A DNA stretch of 64,000 nt from Myxococcus dinghuensis (GTDB lineage Bacteria; Myxococcota; Myxococcia; Myxococcales; Myxococcaceae): the NCBI RefSeq assembly GCF_024198235.1, contig NZ_JAKCFB010000005.1, positions 62,001 through 126,000 on the forward strand. The letters run 5' to 3'. The first letter of the stretch is position 1; each line of letters starts with the position of its first letter. A model generated the notes under the pieces. The model saw nothing but the letters and a program-made list of their open reading frames with translations. It did not search any database and had not been told where the DNA came from. The position numbers were made by a program, and so were the translations under genes. Positions 1,864 to 15,765 of the stretch are shown here, piece after piece.

Positions 1864-2727
1864 ATGAAGCGCCCATTCCTGTTCGTCACGTGTGTCGTGC
1901 TCGGGCTCGCGTCGTCAGCCTGCGGGTCGGGAGGAGCCACGCCGGACCCGGGGTTCCAGACCGAGGACGCGGAGGCCGTGGACCTCGAGAACCTCCGCAT
2001 CCGGATCAGCGGCAAGGTCGAGGTGTTCCCGGAGGCGGCGAGCCTGCTCGCATCCCAGGGCCAGTCGATGCCCGCGCTGGAGGGCCTCCCACTCACCGTC
2101 GAGGAGCCGCTGCGCGCGGCGGTGAACGACGCCAACGCCACGTTCGGCGCGAGCACCACGGGCGCGCAGGGGGCGTTCAGCGTGGATGGGATTCCGGTGA
2201 AGGAGATGCACCTGAGCCTCGCGGCGCGGCCCGAGGCTTCGGGGCTCACGCGCGCGACCACCGTCCTCTATGACAGCGCCTTCACCGGCGCGCGTCCCCG
2301 GACGGACATCATCGAGGCGCGCGTGTGGCTGCTGCCCACGGCCTTCCACGACGCGTTGAGTGCCGCGCTGGGCGAGGCCCGGCTGCGTGGCCTCACCGAC
2401 GACCAGGCCCAGACGTTGAGCGGCGCGGGCTTCGTGCTCGGGCGCGTGGTGGACGAGGATGGCGCGCCCGTGGCTGGCGCGCGCGTGGTGCCCGACCGGG
2501 CGGAGCTCGCCGAGCGCGTCTTCTACCCGGCACAGGACCTCGCCAGCATGGGACAGGAGGGCACGGCGGCGAGCGGCCTGTTCGTCTACGTCCACTCTGG
2601 CGGAAGCGCCGAGGCGTTCCAGTTGGGCGTGGACGGACGGGAGGGCTACGTCGGCCGCAACGTCGACGTCGCGCCGGGCTGGGGACTGGTGCTCACGCTG
2701 TACCCGGGCCGCCATCCCCCTCCGTAG
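1864..2727 (+). CDS. Putative lipoprotein with a carboxypeptidase-regulatory-like fold
   Basis: A 287-residue protein. The start at 1864 gives MKRPFLFVTCVVLGLASSAC, a clean signal peptide with lipobox ASSAC, so I prefer it to the upstream in-frame start at 1771. After an acidic linker (about 25-45) the sequence has beta-rich stretches, including RIRISGKVEVFPEA and later VLGRVVDEDGAPVAGARVVPD. The second is the signature of carboxypeptidase-regulatory-like (CarboxypepD_reg) beta-sandwich domains. It probably acts at the outer membrane as a binding or scaffold domain. The ligand is unknown. It stands alone between the Gly-rich lipoprotein and a histidine kinase. Confidence 0.75.
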   Translation: MKRPFLFVTCVVLGLASSACGSGGATPDPGFQTEDAEAVDLENLRIRISGKVEVFPEAASLLASQGQSMPALEGLPLTVEEPLRAAVNDANATFGASTTGAQGAFSVDGIPVKEMHLSLAARPEASGLTRATTVLYDSAFTGARPRTDIIEARVWLLPTAFHDALSAALGEARLRGLTDDQAQTLSGAGFVLGRVVDEDGAPVAGARVVPDRAELAERVFYPAQDLASMGQEGTAASGLFVYVHSGGSAEAFQLGVDGREGYVGRNVDVAPGWGLVLTLYPGRHPPP

Positions 2728-2913
2728 GCGGAGGCGAGCGCCCACCCCGCCGCTCGGGGCGGACACGGACGACGCATCCGGCGACACCCCGCACCGTCGT
2801 TCGACGCGGCACGGGTCCGTCGTGAGCATCCATGTCCCAGGGGTGTTCGCGCACCGAGGGGTCCCTCCCCGACACCGCGTCGCCGAGCGCCCGAGCGTTC
2901 CGGGGGGACGTCG

Positions 2914-5274
2914 ATGAACCGGACCTGGAGGCCCAAGCCCCATCGCCAGGCCGTGGCCCGGGCGCTCGCCTGGGGCGCCGCGGTGGGAGTCCCCCTGCTC
3001 GGGGCGCTGGGGTTGGCCGGCGTGACGCTCGACCTGGCGCTCGCCGACGCCTCCTCCATCGACCTCCCCCTGACCACCCCGCGCACGCACGTCTCGCTCA
3101 TCCTGGGGGGACTCGCGCTGGGGCTCCGGCTGCCTCGCGCGCAGTCGTCGATACGCCAGTGGCTCTCCAGGACGTCGGCGCTGGGCATGGCGTTCATCGG
3201 CTCCGCGGGGCTGATGCTGGACCTGCTGGGCATCGAGCCCTTCGCCTGGGGCATCGGACCGCGCCCCTCGCCGCTCACCGGCACGAGCCTCTTGCTGCTC
3301 GGCGTGGCCCTGCTGCTCCCCGCCCATCGGCCGGTTCGCACCCTGGCCCGGGATGCCGTGACGTTGCTGGCGCTGCTCGTCGCATTGCTGGGGCTCAATG
3401 GGCTGCTCCTCGGCACGCTCGTCGCGAAGGGGATGACGCCCTTCCCCGCCCAGCGGGGCATGGGGCTGCATACCTCGCTGGCGTTGCTGCTCCTGGGCCT
3501 GGGGGTCCTCTGCGTCCAGCCCGAGCGGGGCCTCGTGGGACGCATCACCCAGGACTCCCTCGGCGGGTTCCTCGCGCGGCGGCTCGTCCCCGTGGCGATG
3601 CTGGGGCCCACCCTGTTGGGCGCCATGCTGGTGTTGATGTTCGCGGAGGGGCTGCTGGGCCGGGGAGCACCGCTGCCCATCTTCGCCACGCTGTTGAGCG
3701 CGGGCGGCGTCATGCTGGTCCTGTTGTCCGCGCGGGCCCTCGACGTGCTCGAGGTCGGGAGGCAACGCGCCACCTCGGCGTTGGCCGCCTCCGAGTCCCG
3801 CTACCGGGGCCTGCTGGAGACGACCCCCACTCCGCTGCTCATGGTGGACCCCCAGGGACGCCTGCGCTTCGTCAACTCGGAGGCGGAGCGGTTGTTCGGG
3901 CATCCGCGCGACTCACTCCTGGGCCAGTCCGTGGACGTGCTGGTGCCGGCCGGACTCGTCGGCCAGGACCGCGCCGAGGGAGAGACCGTCGAGCACACCC
4001 TGCGAGGCGTCCGCGGGGATGGCGCGGACCTCCACCTGGAGGCGCGGCTGCGTCCGGTGGAGAGCCCGGAGGGGATGTGCCTGCTCGTCGCGCTGCGGGA
4101 CGTCACCGAGCGCGAGCACTTCATCTCCCGGCTCGAACACGCCCGGGAAGAGGCGGAGATGCAGCGCGGGTTGCTGCAGGCCGTGGTGAACCACGCGCCC
4201 GTGGGCGTCCTCTTCATCGACCCCACGAAGCGCCTGACGGTGACCAACCCCTTCGCGGAGACGATGCTCGGCCGTGGCCCGGGCGGCATCGAGCGGGGCG
4301 CCTACCTGGGGCGGGTCCGCGCGTTGGATGGACGTCCCCTCACGCTGGAGGAGCTGCCCTCCACGCGCGTGTTCCGGACCGGGAAGGTGGTGGGGCCGCA
4401 GGAGGTCCTCATCGTCCGACCGGAGGACGGGAAGACGATGCCGGTGCTCATCACCGCCGCCCCCGTCCCCGGCTCCCATGGGGGGATTCGCGGCGTGGTC
4501 GTCACGGGCCAGGACCTCACGCCCCGCAAGGAGCTGGAGCGGCTGCGGGAGGAGTACGTGAGCCTCATCTCCCACGACCTGCGCACGCCGCTGCAAGGCA
4601 TCACCCTGCGCGCCAGCCTGCTGCGCCGGCACCTGCGGGAGCACCACCTGCCGCGCGAGGAGTCGATGACGGAGGCCATCCTGCGCGACGTCGGGTGGAT
4701 GAGCGGCATGATCGAGGAGATGCTCGAGGGCTCGCGCATGGAGTCGCGCGGCCTGACGCTGCGGCGCAAGCCGGTGGACCTGGCGCGCTTCCTCGAGGAG
4801 GCGCTGGAGCGCGACCTGCCCCCCGCCCTGCGCGAGCGCTTCCGGCTGGAGGTGGCCACGCCCCTGCCCATCGCATGGCTGGACACGGCGCGCGTGGAGC
4901 GGGTGCTGAGCAACCTGCTGACCAACGCGGCCAAGTACGGACCGCCGGACCGTCCCGTGGAGGTGCGCGTCGTCACGCGCGACAGCGAGGCCGTGGTGTC
5001 GGTGCGCGACGAGGGCGCGGGCCTCACGCCCGAGGAGGCCGAGCACATCTTCGACAAGTACTACCGCACGCGGCAGGGCAGCGCGGCGGACACCCATGGC
5101 CTGGGGCTGGGCCTCTACATCAGCCGTCTCATCGTCGAGGCACACGGCGGACGCATCTGGGTGGTGAGCGCGCCGGGCCAGGGCGCCACCTTCTGCTTCA
5201 GCCTGCCGCTGTGCCCACCGGGCGGAGACGCGCCCTCGATGAAGGCGGGCTCCGGCCCGGAAGGCGTGGGGTGA
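2914..5274 (+). CDS. Membrane PAS-domain sensor histidine kinase
   Basis: A 786-residue sensor kinase. Residues 15-270 contain about eight hydrophobic segments forming a membrane sensor region. Two PAS domains follow (about 290-400 and 420-540), then a HisKA dimerisation domain with the phospho-acceptor His554 in LISHDLRTPLQG, and a HATPase_c domain with N box NLLTNAAKYG, G1 DEGAGL and G2 GLGLGLYIS. The start at 2914 has a run of G about 8 bases upstream. No receiver is fused and no response regulator is adjacent, so it is an orphan kinase whose partner cannot be named from this window. The stop at 5274 lies 10 bases from the convergent TolB-like gene. Confidence 0.9.
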   Translation: MNRTWRPKPHRQAVARALAWGAAVGVPLLGALGLAGVTLDLALADASSIDLPLTTPRTHVSLILGGLALGLRLPRAQSSIRQWLSRTSALGMAFIGSAGLMLDLLGIEPFAWGIGPRPSPLTGTSLLLLGVALLLPAHRPVRTLARDAVTLLALLVALLGLNGLLLGTLVAKGMTPFPAQRGMGLHTSLALLLLGLGVLCVQPERGLVGRITQDSLGGFLARRLVPVAMLGPTLLGAMLVLMFAEGLLGRGAPLPIFATLLSAGGVMLVLLSARALDVLEVGRQRATSALAASESRYRGLLETTPTPLLMVDPQGRLRFVNSEAERLFGHPRDSLLGQSVDVLVPAGLVGQDRAEGETVEHTLRGVRGDGADLHLEARLRPVESPEGMCLLVALRDVTEREHFISRLEHAREEAEMQRGLLQAVVNHAPVGVLFIDPTKRLTVTNPFAETMLGRGPGGIERGAYLGRVRALDGRPLTLEELPSTRVFRTGKVVGPQEVLIVRPEDGKTMPVLITAAPVPGSHGGIRGVVVTGQDLTPRKELERLREEYVSLISHDLRTPLQGITLRASLLRRHLREHHLPREESMTEAILRDVGWMSGMIEEMLEGSRMESRGLTLRRKPVDLARFLEEALERDLPPALRERFRLEVATPLPIAWLDTARVERVLSNLLTNAAKYGPPDRPVEVRVVTRDSEAVVSVRDEGAGLTPEEAEHIFDKYYRTRQGSAADTHGLGLGLYISRLIVEAHGGRIWVVSAPGQGATFCFSLPLCPPGGDAPSMKAGSGPEGVG

Positions 5275-11370: not shown

Positions 11371-12771
11371 CTACCAGGGGGCTTCGCGGAAGTCCTTCAG
11401 GAAGCGGCCATGGACGGGGTGGCCCTGGAAGCCCAGGTAGAGGGGCTCGCAGACGCGGGCGGCGGCGTCCGCGCCGTCCAGCGGGAGCAGAAAGCCCTCC
11501 GCCTCCATCTGGCGGCGCTTGGCCTCCGGGTTCTCGTTGGAGATCCACCCCGGGTCCACGCTGTTCATGAAGATGCCGTCCTGGGCGTAGTCCTCGGCGG
11601 AGGTGCGCGTGAGCATGTTGAGGGCGGCCTTCGCCATGTTGGTGTGGGGGTGGAAGGCGGTCTTGTTCCCGCGGGTGAACTGCCCCTCCACGGCGGAGAC
11701 ATTGAGGATGTAGCGGTCCGCGAAGGGGGAGCGCGTCAGCAGCGGCTTGAGCCGGCTGCACAGGAGGAAGGGGGCGACGGCGTTGATGAGCTGCGCCTCC
11801 ACCAGCTCCAGGGGGGCCACCTCGTCCAGGCGCGCCACCCAGCCATTGAAGGTCGCCTCCGGGGCGGTGGTTCCCACGGGCAGGAGGGCGAGGCCAGGGG
11901 CCTCGGGCGAGGGCAGGCCGGGGACCTCGCGCACCCGGTCCGCGACGGGGGTGGGCAGGGCCTGGGCCAGCTCCCGCTCCCCGGCCAGGAGCGCCACGCT
12001 CCGCTCGGGGGTGAGGCGCACCGTCTGGGCCGCGTTGTTCACGAGGATGTCCAGGTGGGGCTGCGTCGCGTCCAGGTGGTGGACGAAGGCGAGCACCTGC
12101 TGGGGGTAGCGCAGGTCGAGGGCGTGGAGGACGAGCCGCTCGCGCCACTGCTCGAAGTCCGGCTCCTGGGCGAAGCGCGCGGCGGCGTCACGGGGGAAGC
12201 GGGAGGTGACGTGGACGTGGGCCCCGTCGCGCAGCAGGCGCAGGGCGACGTGGAAGCCGACCTTGATGCGGCCCCCCGTCACCAGGGCGCGACGCCCCTC
12301 CAGGGACAGGCGCGCGCGGCGGCGCCCGAGGCTCAGCTCCGCGCAGTCCGGACAGAGCGAGAGATAGACGGGGTGGAGCTGCTTGAAGGCGTCGCCGCAC
12401 ATGTAGCAACGGCGGGAGCGGCGCGTGTGGACCGCGGGCGCGTCCTCCGGGATGGCCTCCGGCGCGGGCAGGACCCGCACGCCGTTCTCCTCGACGCGGG
12501 CGTCGGCGAGCTCCTGGAGGGTGGCGCGGTCCTCCTGCCGGGTGACGACCCGCCGTGCCCGGCGAAGCCGCTTCTTGAACCCGCGCTGCACCTGCGTCGC
12601 CGCCGCCTCCACCTGGTGGCGCAAGGGGTGGTCATCGGGGAGCCGGGCCACGGCGCGCAGCACCTCGAGGCACCGGGCCACGTCCTCGGCGGAGGGCTCC
12701 GGAGGTGGGGCGGAGTCCGGCTCCGACGTGTCGGTCTCGTCGTGTCTACGCGCTGCCTCTTCCCGCGTCAT
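11371..12771 (-). CDS. Zinc-ribbon/SDR fusion oxidoreductase
   Basis: A 466-residue protein with an unusual layout. Residues 1-110 are charged and helical; residues 130-165 carry CYMCGDAF...LSLCPDCAELSL, a CxxC...CxxC zinc ribbon; residues 170-460 are a Rossmann short-chain dehydrogenase (ALVTGGRIKVGFHVALRLL, DILVNNAAQT, LNVSAVEGQF). Where classical SDRs have YxxxK this protein has TNMAK in FHPHTNMAKAALNM, so the catalytic Tyr is replaced. The N-terminal zinc ribbon suggests a nucleic-acid or protein docking role; substrate unknown. I start it at ATG 12771: the same frame continues upstream only into tRNA-like DNA and would give spurious residues. Confidence 0.85.
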   Translation of the reverse strand: MTREEAARRHDETDTSEPDSAPPPEPSAEDVARCLEVLRAVARLPDDHPLRHQVEAAATQVQRGFKKRLRRARRVVTRQEDRATLQELADARVEENGVRVLPAPEAIPEDAPAVHTRRSRRCYMCGDAFKQLHPVYLSLCPDCAELSLGRRRARLSLEGRRALVTGGRIKVGFHVALRLLRDGAHVHVTSRFPRDAAARFAQEPDFEQWRERLVLHALDLRYPQQVLAFVHHLDATQPHLDILVNNAAQTVRLTPERSVALLAGERELAQALPTPVADRVREVPGLPSPEAPGLALLPVGTTAPEATFNGWVARLDEVAPLELVEAQLINAVAPFLLCSRLKPLLTRSPFADRYILNVSAVEGQFTRGNKTAFHPHTNMAKAALNMLTRTSAEDYAQDGIFMNSVDPGWISNENPEAKRRQMEAEGFLLPLDGADAAARVCEPLYLGFQGHPVHGRFLKDFREAPW

Positions 12772-12848
12772 CCCTGCGCTCCGAACCGCCCTCCCCCGCG
12801 CCGCTGTTGGCGACAGGAGGACCGCTGGGCGGAAGGTCACGCCCGGAC

Positions 12849-12921
12849 ACGAGACGACCGGATTCGAACCGGCGTCCTTCTCGTTGCAAACGAGACGCGA
12901 CGACCGCTGCGCTACGCCTCG
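12849..12921 (-). tRNA. tRNA-like element 1, anticodon UGC
   Basis: Read on the minus strand this 73-base unit folds into a full cloverleaf. The acceptor is CGAGGCG/CGTCTCG, the anticodon stem TCTCG/CGAGA has loop TTTGCAA (anticodon UGC, nominally Ala), and the T arm is GCCGG-TTCGAAT-CCGGT. Against an ordinary Ala tRNA, pair 3:70 is A:U rather than G:U, base 73 is U, A21 is missing and no CCA is encoded. The acceptor helix continues outward (12922-12930 with 12841-12849, 8 of 9 pairs). It is part of an array of seven; whether it is charged is doubtful. Confidence 0.5.
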
Positions 12922-12979
12922 TGACCGAGCCGCCCGAGCCTGCCGGGCATGCACGCGCCACGCAAGCCGCGCCTGGACG

Positions 12980-13054
12980 GGGGCGCGGCCGGATTCGAAC
13001 CGACGTCCTCCCGACGAGCCGTCGGGCGCGACCACCTCCCTGCGCTACACGCCC
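12980..13054 (-). ncRNA. tRNA-like element 2 (loop lacks U33)
   Basis: The minus-strand fold has acceptor GGGCGTG/CGCGCCC (all seven pairs, one G-U), D stem GCGC, anticodon stem CCCGA/TCGGG and T arm GTCGG-TTCGAAT-CCGGC. The seven-base loop is CGGCTCG, so the universal U33 is replaced by G; positions 34-36 would read GCU. The acceptor helix extends by ten further pairs (13055-13064 with 12971-12980). A normal decoding tRNA without U33 is not expected, so I call it tRNA-like. No CCA follows. Confidence 0.5.
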
Positions 13055-13169
13055 CCGCCCAGGCAGGGACACGGTTGCACGAATTGCCCGCATCGGGCAG
13101 GGCAGAGCCCCCGGACAAGGCGGTCCGAACCGACCGGGCTCGCGCGCGTCCGACGAGCAGCGCCCGGGC

Positions 13170-13242
13170 GGAACGGAGCCGGATTCGAACCGGCGTCCTC
13201 CTGAATCGTAGTCAGGCGCGACAACCGCTGCGCTACACGCCC
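13170..13242 (-). tRNA. tRNA-like element 3, anticodon ACG
   Basis: A 73-base minus-strand cloverleaf with anticodon stem CCTGA/TCAGG, loop CTACGAT (anticodon ACG, nominally Arg) and T arm GCCGG-TTCGAAT-CCGGC. The inner acceptor is weak (GGGCGTG against TCCGTTC, one mismatch and three G-U). The helix is continued by nine perfect pairs outside it (13243-13251 with 13162-13170). Its D-arm sequence is nearly identical to element 4 although the anticodon differs. No CCA is encoded. Confidence 0.5.
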
Positions 13243-13302
13243 CGCCCGGGCTCGCGCACGGTGCACGCCTCCGTCGGGTCATGCAAAGCAAAACACCGGG
13301 GC

Positions 13303-13375
13303 GAGGCGCGACCGGATTCGAACCGGCGTCCTCCTGATTGGCAGTCAGGCGCGACAACCGCTGCGCTACACGCCC
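13303..13375 (-). tRNA. tRNA-like element 4, anticodon GCC
   Basis: The best-formed member. Acceptor GGGCGTG/CGCGCCT, D stem GCGC with loop AGCGGTTGTC, anticodon stem CCTGA/TCAGG with loop CTGCCAA (anticodon GCC, nominally Gly) and T arm GCCGG-TTCGAAT-CCGGT. Outside the acceptor, five pairs, one mismatch and two more pairs continue the helix (13376-13383 with 13296-13303). Except for the anticodon loop and the acceptor 3' half, it matches element 3 almost base for base. A21 is absent and there is no CCA. Confidence 0.55.
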
Positions 13376-13435
13376 CGCCCAGGCACACGCACGGTGCACG
13401 CCTCCGTCGAGTCATGCAAAGCAAAACACCGGGAC

Positions 13436-13497
13436 GAGGCGCGGCTGGATTCGAACCGGCGCCCTCCAAGGGTCATGAGCCGTCGCGCGACGTCCCT
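13436..13497 (-). pseudogene. tRNA-like element 5, truncated, CAU anticodon
   Basis: A 62-base relative of element 6. The CTCATGA anticodon loop (CAU) and the T arm GCCGG-TTCGAAT-CCAGC remain, but the 5' half of the D arm (the GTGTAGCGCAG segment present in the others) is missing, so no cloverleaf can form. The outer helix is still partly intact (CCGGGCGAGG against CCTCGTCCCGG with one bulge). It looks like a deletion derivative. Confidence 0.5.
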
Positions 13498-13556
13498 CGC
13501 CCGGACACAGTCGAGCATGGCGTCATGGCCAGCGACCGTGCAGCTAGCGCCCGGGC

Positions 13557-13633
13557 GAGGTGCGACCGGATTCGAACCGGTGTCCTCCGAGGGTTATGAG
13601 CCTCCGGCGCGACGACCCCTGCGCTACACCCCT
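13557..13633 (-). tRNA. tRNA-like element 6, anticodon CAU
   Basis: A 77-base minus-strand fold with acceptor AGGGGTG/CGCACCT (one mismatch), D stem GCGC/GCGC with a ten-base loop, anticodon loop CTCATAA (CAU, nominally Met) on a GGAGG/CCCTC stem with one mismatch, a seven-base variable region and T arm ACCGG-TTCGAAT-CCGGT. Eleven further pairs extend the acceptor (13634-13644 with 13547-13557). The mispaired anticodon stem and missing CCA argue against an ordinary methionine tRNA. Confidence 0.5.
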
Positions 13634-13678
13634 CACCCGAGCGCACGCGAGCGTGACGCGCGCACCGTGACGAAGCAA

Positions 13679-13752
13679 GGGGTGCCCGGGCGGACTCGAA
13701 CCGGCGTCCTCCGACGCGGACGGCGTCGACGCGACGACCACCGCGAGCCCCC
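13679..13752 (-). ncRNA. tRNA-like element 7, degenerate
   Basis: The most diverged copy. A T arm is still recognisable (GCCGG-TTCGAGT-CCGCC, one mismatch) and an anticodon-like hairpin CGACG/CGTCG has loop CCGTCCG without U33. The D arm is rearranged. A closing helix GGGGGCTCG/CGGGC(A)CCCC of nine pairs with one bulged A joins the ends. It lies closest to the kup gene. Confidence 0.4.
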
Positions 13753-13797
13753 GCGTCGGAACCGCGGGAGCGCTGCGTCTCACGACGTCGGGGACTT

Positions 13798-13839: not shown

Positions 13840-15765
13840 CTACAGCTCCACCTGGCTTCCCAGCTCCACCACGCGGTTGGGCGGAATCCGGAAGTACGCC
13901 GTGGCGCTGCGCGCGTTGCGGCTCATCCAGGCGAACAGCGCCTCGCGCCACACGGCCATGCCGGGCCGCTTGGTGGGAATCAGCGTCTCGCGACCGAGGA
14001 AGAAGCTGGTGCCCATCAACTGGAACTGGAGCCCCTTCTCCCGGCAGCGCTTGAGCACGTCCGGGATGCTGGGGTTCTCCATGAAGCCGTAGCGGGCCAC
14101 CACGCGCACGAAGCCCTGCTCCAGCGGCTCCACCTCCACGCGCTCGGCGGGAGGGACGTGCGGCACGTCCTCGGACAGGATGGTCAGCAGCACCACCTGC
14201 TCGTGCAGCACCTTGTTGTGCTTCAGGTTGTGCAGCAGCGCCGGCGGCGTGCCCTCCGCGTTGCCCGTCATGAAGATGGCGGTGCCCGGCACGCGCACGG
14301 GCGGGTGGTCTCCGAAGCTGCCCAACAGCTCCTTGAGCGGGATGCTCGACGCGCGCAGCTTGCCCGCGAGGATGTCGCGCCCGCGCTTCCACGTGGTCAT
14401 CAGCGTGAAGACGATGATGGCGAGCAGCAACGGGAACCAGCCGCCGTCTGCCAGCTTCATCGCGTTGGCCGTGAAGAAGGACAGCTCCACCGTGAAGAGG
14501 ATGCCCGCCACGGGGATGGCCACCCAGCGGCTCACCGCCCAGCGCTCGCGCGCGACCACGTAGGCCATGAGGGACGTGATGACCATCGTCGTGGACACGG
14601 CGATGCCGTACGCGGCCGCCAGCGCGCTGGAGGAGCGGAACGTCAGCACCAGCGCGAAGACGCCCACCATGAGCGCCCCGTTGATGCCCGGCAGGTAGAT
14701 CTGCCCCATCTCCTCCGCGGACGTGTGCACCACCTCCATGCGCGGGCTGTAGCCCAGTTGCATCGCCTGGCGCGTCAGCGAGAACGCCCCGGAGATGAGC
14801 GCCTGCGACGCGATGACACCCGCCACGGCGGCCAGGACCACCAGCGGGTAGAGCATCCACGAGGGCGCCAGCAGGAAGAACGGGTTGCGCGCAGCAGACC
14901 CGTCGCGCAGCAAGAGCGCGCCCTGCCCCAGGTAGTTGAGCATCAGCGCCGGCAGCACCGCGGAGAACCACGCCCAGCGGATGGGCTTCCAACCGAAGTG
15001 GCCCATGTCCGCGTAGAGCGCCTCGCAGCCCGTCACGCACAGGAACACGCCGCCCAGGACGAGGAACCCGTGCCAGCCGTTGTGCACCAGCAGCAGCACG
15101 CCGTGCGTGGGCAGCAGCGCCCCCAGCACCGCGGGGTTGTGCACCAGCTCCTTCACGCCCAACGCGGCCAGCGTGAGGAACCACACGCACATCAGCGGAC
15201 CGAACACCGCGCCGATGCCCGCGGTGCCGTGACGCTGCACCGTGAAGAGGACGAACAGGATGACCAGGGTGATGGGGACCACGTACGGCTCGAACACCGG
15301 GGTCGCCACGCTCAGGCCCTCCACCGCGCTGAGCACGGTGATGGCCGGGGTGATGAGGCCGTCTCCATAGAGGAGCGCCGCGCCGAAGATGCCCAGCACG
15401 ATGAGCACCGGGCGCGTCGTATGCGCCTGCTGCCCCTTCTGCCGCTGCATCACCAGCGCCATCAACGCCAGGATGCCGCCCTCGCCCCGGTTGTCCGCCC
15501 GCATCACGAAGATGAGGTACTTCACGGACACGATGATGATGAGGGACCAGAAGATGAGCGACAGCACCCCGAGCACGTTCTGCGGCGTGGGGGCGATGCC
15601 GTGGGGTCCGTTGAAACACTCGCGCAACGCGTACAGCGGGCTCGTCCCGATATCTCCGTAGACGATGCCCAGGGCCCCGAGGGCCAGGAGCGCCGTGCGC
15701 TTGAAGGTGTCCGGACCCTCCCGGACCTCTTCGCCGCCAGGAACTCCAGTGGTGGTGGCTTTCAC
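13840..15765 (-). CDS. kup: Kup-family potassium uptake protein
   Basis: A 641-residue membrane protein of the KUP/HAK/KT family, the usual length for bacterial Kup. The N-terminus has the family hallmark LGALGIVYGDIGTSPLYALRE, cited here by its core GIVYGDIGTSPLY. About twelve hydrophobic segments fill residues 25-440, including NRGEGGILALMAL, CVTGCEALYADMGHFG and GQGALLL. A cytoplasmic C-terminal domain of about 190 residues follows (GTAIFMTGNAEGTPPALLHNLKHN). It should import K+ with protons. It is a single gene with a hairpin after the stop, and is divergent from the large kinase gene across about 250 bases. Confidence 0.95.
   Translation of the reverse strand: MKATTTGVPGGEEVREGPDTFKRTALLALGALGIVYGDIGTSPLYALRECFNGPHGIAPTPQNVLGVLSLIFWSLIIIVSVKYLIFVMRADNRGEGGILALMALVMQRQKGQQAHTTRPVLIVLGIFGAALLYGDGLITPAITVLSAVEGLSVATPVFEPYVVPITLVILFVLFTVQRHGTAGIGAVFGPLMCVWFLTLAALGVKELVHNPAVLGALLPTHGVLLLVHNGWHGFLVLGGVFLCVTGCEALYADMGHFGWKPIRWAWFSAVLPALMLNYLGQGALLLRDGSAARNPFFLLAPSWMLYPLVVLAAVAGVIASQALISGAFSLTRQAMQLGYSPRMEVVHTSAEEMGQIYLPGINGALMVGVFALVLTFRSSSALAAAYGIAVSTTMVITSLMAYVVARERWAVSRWVAIPVAGILFTVELSFFTANAMKLADGGWFPLLLAIIVFTLMTTWKRGRDILAGKLRASSIPLKELLGSFGDHPPVRVPGTAIFMTGNAEGTPPALLHNLKHNKVLHEQVVLLTILSEDVPHVPPAERVEVEPLEQGFVRVVARYGFMENPSIPDVLKRCREKGLQFQLMGTSFFLGRETLIPTKRPGMAVWREALFAWMSRNARSATAYFRIPPNRVVELGSQVEL

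Follow-up and report, generated by a model that had tools for sequence, protein, structure and literature searches.

A row of tRNA-like RNAs that may belong with a downstream SDR-like gene in Myxococcus dinghuensis

The window analysed here, a 64,000-nucleotide stretch of Myxococcus dinghuensis (contig NZ_JAKCFB010000005.1, 62,001 to 126,000), carries on its minus strand at 12841–13748 an array of seven tRNA-like units, five intact and two decayed, between kup and a gene for a short-chain dehydrogenase/reductase (SDR)-like protein. We tentatively favour the view that the units of the array are mimic RNAs, derived from tRNA and probably without a role in decoding, which belong with this downstream gene and act with its protein. 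With the same reserve, we suggest that at least three phyla hold an RNA–protein system of this kind, in which one to seven anticodon-switching tRNA mimics and an SDR-like protein, joined at some loci by a leucine-rich repeat (LRR) protein, serve as operator, ribonucleoprotein or decoy outside decoding. Judged from the sequence comparisons below, the elbow and the anticodon hairpin are kept under covariation, and the units are lost together with the SDR gene. No description of the arrangement was found in open-access full text, and an earlier report in the subscription literature is possible. Since tRNA finders annotate the units as ordinary tRNAs, the arrangement is easily overlooked.

Structure of the tRNA-like units

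A first-pass annotation, made from the letters of the window, had reported seven minus-strand cloverleaf-like units between kup and the SDR gene. All seven were recovered by a family covariance model (R1, built from 17 units of six genomes), five at 79–101 bits and the two decayed ones at 30–34 bits. ARAGORN accepted five as tRNAs (Table 1), and an Rfam search placed four window units above threshold (35–60 bits).

Intact units are 7/5 cloverleaves whose variable loop has 5 nt. Nine more pairs extend the 7-bp acceptor stem outwards, so that acceptor and outer pairs form one continuous stem of about 16 bp. Positions 73–81 pair with −1 to −9, each pair being present in 24–27 of 26–27 units; the single-stranded 3′ end that follows the 7-bp acceptor stem of a canonical tRNA is absent. 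In the 74 canonical tRNAs of the same genome, a mean of 2.8 of the nine outer positions are paired (maximum 7). In a 29-unit alignment fitted to the model, 96.4% of cells are paired and 17 of the 29 pairs vary on both sides, a level reached by none of 500 shuffles; a MAFFT alignment of 17 units (95.1% paired) gives the same verdict. When the structure is slid along the alignment, only 36–49% of cells are paired, against 96% in place. Covariation spans the whole extended stem and the anticodon stem and, together with orthologous arrays in ten other genomes, excludes a chance origin.

The units have the cloverleaf fold, the D/T loop contacts of the tRNA elbow and an anticodon hairpin. Among the 27 intact units the D arm, the T arm and the variable loop (AGGAC) are nearly invariant, and position 73 is mostly C, paired with G−1. 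The anticodon loops fall into the classes GCT (8), CAT (5), GCC (4), TGC (3), CCA (3) and ACG (2), the others being single, and these classes recur in three genera on different, compensated stems. Most loops retain U33 and A37. The loop TTTGCAA is identical to that of the genome's tRNA-Ala; CGCCAGA, which lacks U33, is common to two array genomes (G011 and G042). Anticodons vary both between sister units and between species.

Several details given in the first-pass annotation were borne out: no CCA is encoded, A21 of the D loop is replaced by G, and some units lack U33 (the GCT unit has G33). Its statement that two elements (its 3 and 4, here units 5 and 4) are nearly identical outside the anticodon loop is slightly overstated. 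The two units, starting at 13162 and 13295, do lie within a 133-bp direct repeat of 89% identity, spacer included, but they differ in the 3′ acceptor strand as well as in the anticodon loop.

The identity elements do not match the anticodons. All GCT (Ser-type) units have the 5-nt variable loop and no long arm, and the Ala-type (TGC) units examined, in G000 and G012, lack G3:U70. The canonical tRNA set of the genome is complete independently of the array. We infer that the units differ from ordinary isoacceptors and are probably neither charged nor CCA-tailed. The annotation's own reading, a tRNA-derived repeat family or a non-decoding structured RNA, gains support from the conserved extended stem, the missing CCA and the contradiction between identity elements and anticodons, as well as from the complete canonical set and the switched anticodons on shared backbones. 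Three features had escaped it: the extension of the stem, the conserved association with the SDR gene and the presence of similar arrangements in other phyla.

The same features bear on whether the units are genuine, unusual decoding tRNAs, comparable to allo-tRNAs, for example missense tRNAs charged by HisRS through G−1:C73 whatever their anticodon. G−1:C73 is the main His identity, and the mostly C73 paired with G−1, the intact elbow and the presence of U33 and A37 in most loops are all consistent with decoding. However, with nine outer pairs closing the stem neither RNase P cleavage nor CCA addition should be possible, the Ser- and Ala-type units lack the long variable arm and G3:U70, respectively, and some conserved loops lack U33. 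Anticodon content also shifts between sister species while the canonical set is complete, and we regard a decoding role as quite improbable.

Association with the SDR-like gene

A covariance-model search of Myxococcota, proposed in the first-pass annotation, was made with R1 across 195 genomes; members scored 75–106 bits and everything else at most 61, which yielded the orthologous arrays in ten other genomes. Of the 96 genomes in the bacterial family, 11 have such units (7 of 27 in the genus and four in two other genera), and in every case a member of one SDR-like clade, or what remains of it, follows closely downstream. A DNA similarity search returned the best of the loci found by R1. These counts of association are not phylogenetically independent, and for draft genomes the number of units is a minimum because assemblies break within the array, as at the ends of loci L077 and L078 (G122:C555 and C383).

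One SDR clade occurs in nine genomes, all nine of which have arrays. In G020 the SDR gene is internally deleted and a single unit is left, in G010 the gene is missing and a single unit is left, and G022 has neither, the FRDAPW-stop codons of the SDR end being kept shortly after kup as a deletion scar. G120 and G122 have only the unit(s) and the SDR gene in common; similarity extends no further than the SDR stop codon, the two neighbourhoods are different, and in G122 a contig end cuts off the 5′ boundary. The ordinary SDR copy of other genomes of the genus was not matched in G000, G011, G122 or G131, and no tRNA-like element was found near the ordinary SDR copies in Myxococcota. kup, which flanks the locus upstream, is present in 27 of 27 genus genomes, array or no array, and is probably not part of the system.

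In the five genomes measured, the last unit ends 8–69 nt ahead of the SDR start codon (69 nt in the window). When the other phyla described below are included, a tRNA-like structure stands just before the start codon in three phyla, on the same strand and with a gap of 8–76 nt, as in a thrS-like leader. This placement suggests that the array and the SDR gene share a transcript; a sigma-70 scan did not find a promoter.

The SDR-like protein has a basic N-terminal part with a zinc-knuckle-type motif (CYxC...CxxC), followed by the SDR domain. In place of the YxxxK of classical SDRs the family has HPHTNMAK, without the classical catalytic tyrosine, which makes ordinary SDR catalysis doubtful. Matches in PDB and NCBIfam are labelled 'SDR', nothing more specific. 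Binding of the units by this protein is suggested by the linkage, the conserved tRNA elbow and the basic zinc-knuckle-type N-terminal part.

Septu genes at the locus

In four genomes, G002, G012 (Pyxidicoccus fallax), G020 and G042, the Septu genes ptuA and ptuB lie between kup and the array, separated from the first unit by 50–60 nt. In G131 a Septu remnant left by deletion stands next to kup (L076, 12601–13260, minus strand); here the ptuA N-terminus (42 aa) is fused in frame to the C-terminal part of ptuB. Thus ptuA-ptuB is beside the array in 4 of 11 array genomes, with one remnant in addition; the other six, the window's genome included, have no ptuAB at the locus. Septu was dropped as a constant partner after 80 PtuB loci across phyla gave no array beyond one already known (79 of 80 without an array); four further PtuB copies in the bacterial family also have none. 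As a separate observation, the array of G131 has directly 5′ of it a cREC gene (cyclic-phosphate processing receiver, PF20274; L076, 8086–8385, minus strand).

Septu of E. coli cleaves tRNA-Tyr in the variable loop (PMC13096335), and tRNA-Tyr is depleted by retron-Eco7 PtuAB (PMC11555353). Like these tRNA-centred defence systems, the present locus has ptuAB, adjoining the array in four genomes, but neither paper describes a tRNA-like array and most array loci have no ptuAB. The units could be decoys, substrates or RNA antitoxins/regulators for a tRNA-cutting PtuAB. The adjacency in four genomes and the remnant in G131 would fit, as would the nearly invariant AGGAC variable loop and the fact that both strongly decayed units belong to a genome that lacks ptuAB. 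Even so, we consider this unlikely, given the six array genomes without ptuAB at the locus, the 79 of 80 PtuB loci and four family copies without an array, and a link between RNA and SDR in Planctomycetota and Deinococcus that does not need ptuAB.

SDR relatives in other phyla

On a Deinococcus plasmid an SDR relative is preceded by one tRNA-like element and one decayed element, and a hairpin whose loop looks like an anticodon loop comes after each of them. The hairpins (L271, 2600–2650 and 2770–2805, plus strand) have the loops CTGCTAA and CTCCAAC, which resemble GCT- and CCA-class anticodon loops. Among 30 SDR loci examined in Planctomycetota, four (L357, L359, L360 and L361) each carry a pair of tRNA-like elements, of which the one closer to the SDR gene lies 71–76 nt before it. 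Their bodies have an 8-bp acceptor stem, a D loop without GG, an unusual T loop and no outer stem; anticodon switching is seen here as well, the second unit being identical between L360 and L361 except for 1 of 74 bases, the first of the anticodon. Model R2 found no further copies. L366 and L372 have further tRNA-like elements with another open reading frame (ORF) between these and the SDR gene. The intervening ORFs (L366, 2963–3871, minus strand; L372, 761–1438, plus strand) have no Pfam match and are distantly related to one another (23% identity). A tRNA-Gln at L375 looks canonical and was left out of the counts.

No tRNA-like element lies upstream of the SDR gene at 30 actinobacterial loci, which hold one ordinary tRNA-Asp, on the opposite strand beyond the SDR gene. 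The D-arm/T-arm pattern was not matched in viral contigs. Phylum labels were taken from named centre records; G200 holds L187 (a Planctomycetota metagenome-assembled genome) and G195 holds L163 (Actinomadura).

Among roughly 100 SDR loci compared, an LRR gene with RNase-inhibitor-type repeats stands 3′ of the SDR gene at seven only (L078, L357, L359, L360, L361, L366 and L372), and all seven have tRNA-like elements; no LRR match was found on plasmids. On a tree of 74 SDR proteins, the tRNA-like trait needs two changes, compared with a mean of 14.7 after shuffling. The trait is contiguous on this unrooted tree, so one old origin followed by losses is possible; branches are long and the placement of Deinococcus, L366 and L372 is unsure.

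The recurrence in three phyla speaks to the idea that the units are functionless, decaying tRNA pseudogene repeats that lie beside the SDR gene by accident. Two of the seven window units are decayed, the array is partly a tandem repeat and it has been lost from most genomes, all of which decay would explain. Compensated stems in three genera, an invariant elbow and an SDR association repeated in three phyla are hard to reconcile with it, and we hold accidental decay to be very unlikely.

The LRR partner bears on another alternative, in which stable, uncharged mimics act as decoys for other anticodon-targeting nucleases or toxins and anticodons diversify in an arms race. Repeats of the RNase-inhibitor type would suit such a role, the loops copy canonical ones (TTTGCAA is the tRNA-Ala loop of the genome), anticodons differ among sister units and species, and the closed stem would give a stable, uncharged RNA. 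But no nuclease is constantly linked to the array, the constant partner being SDR-like, which makes this explanation improbable.

Relation to known systems

In E. coli, the thrS mRNA leader contains a tRNA-like operator. The present units are likewise tRNA-like structures in what would be an mRNA leader, a short way before the start codon of a possible tRNA-binding protein. Unlike that operator, they are complete cloverleaves, as many as seven in a row and with differing anticodons, and the gene that follows is SDR-like; binding or repression is only proposed here. Bacterial Y RNAs (YrlA), which associate with Ro/TROVE proteins, also have a tRNA-like module closed by a long terminal stem. Y RNA was rejected as an identity, since TROVE (PF05731) was found in only 1 of the 96 family genomes (G124, weak) and in no array genome; nor did the units match YrlA in Rfam. 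Type III toxin-antitoxin systems (ToxIN) place structured RNA repeats directly before an endoribonuclease toxin gene. The array resembles them in its repeated structured units directly 5′ of a protein gene, but these units are tRNA-like and the downstream protein is SDR-like instead of a ToxN-type endoribonuclease.

Allo-tRNAs and irregular tRNA polycistrons (Mukai et al. 2017, reviewed in PMC7609411) are non-canonical tRNA-shaped genes with diverse anticodons, some of them polycistronic, and in this they are like the present units. Some allo-tRNAs have an extra G−1 pair and are not chargeable by E. coli synthetases (PMC7609411). Allo-tRNAs are, however, defined by Ser identity, by a 12-bp branch of the 8/4 or 9/3 type and by a long variable arm (PMC7609411), whereas the units described here have a 7/5 core to which nine outer pairs are added, a variable loop of 5 nt and a link to an SDR gene.

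Proposed mechanism

We speculate that the units are transcribed as a leader of the SDR mRNA and that closure of the stem impedes both the processing of their ends and the addition of CCA. The SDR-like protein would bind the tRNA-shaped RNAs, either in cis, like the E. coli thrS operator, or in trans as a ribonucleoprotein, and the changing anticodon loops may set which tRNA is mimicked. Several observations weigh against a mimic system tied to the SDR gene. Up to seven units exceed what an operator needs, and G010 retains a good unit without the SDR gene. RNAs of this kind are missing from the vicinity of most SDR relatives (in Actinomycetota and the ordinary copies of Myxococcota and Planctomycetota), so the protein is able to occur on its own. 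Unit bodies differ between phyla, and a common RNA ancestor does not follow. If the proposal is true, these tRNA mimics form a family whose protein partners are conserved, the role of a widespread SDR subfamily becomes approachable for the first time, and the question why bacteria keep rows of anticodon-varied, tRNA-shaped RNAs can be put to the test.

Features of the locus and minor observations

Table 1. Positions of the array and its flanking genes in the window (units numbered from kup towards the SDR gene).
Feature	Position	Strand	Description	R1 (bits)	ARAGORN
SDR-like gene	11371..12771	−	466 aa; directly downstream of array
tRNA-like unit 7	12841..12930	−	TGC; intact; closest to SDR gene	99.8	Ala-TGC
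tRNA-like unit 6	12972..13063	−	GCT; loop CGGCTCG without U33	79.5	Ser-GCT
tRNA-like unit 5	13162..13251	−	ACG; intact	100.8	Arg-ACG
tRNA-like unit 4	13295..13384	−	GCC; intact	98.2	Gly-GCC
tRNA-like unit 3	13428..13506	−	Decayed; D arm disrupted	33.7
tRNA-like unit 2	13549..13642	−	CAT; anticodon arm enlarged	87.3	Met-CAT
tRNA-like unit 1	13684..13748	−	Decayed; without acceptor and D arm	30.4
kup	13840..15765	−	Potassium uptake; upstream flank of locus

Long plus-strand ORFs run over the array at 12425–13599 of the window. Their repeated GFEP/PDSNRR-type peptides are the antisense translation of the T arms, and the predicted proteins are probably spurious. A second cluster, of 13 tRNA genes in about 2 kb, was seen at L151 (G000:C36:8000-14000, at 2041–4087). 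Several of its tRNAs (Cys, Trp, Met, Leu) have low Rfam scores and shortened D arms; the cluster looks like a phage-type or mobile one, unrelated to R1.
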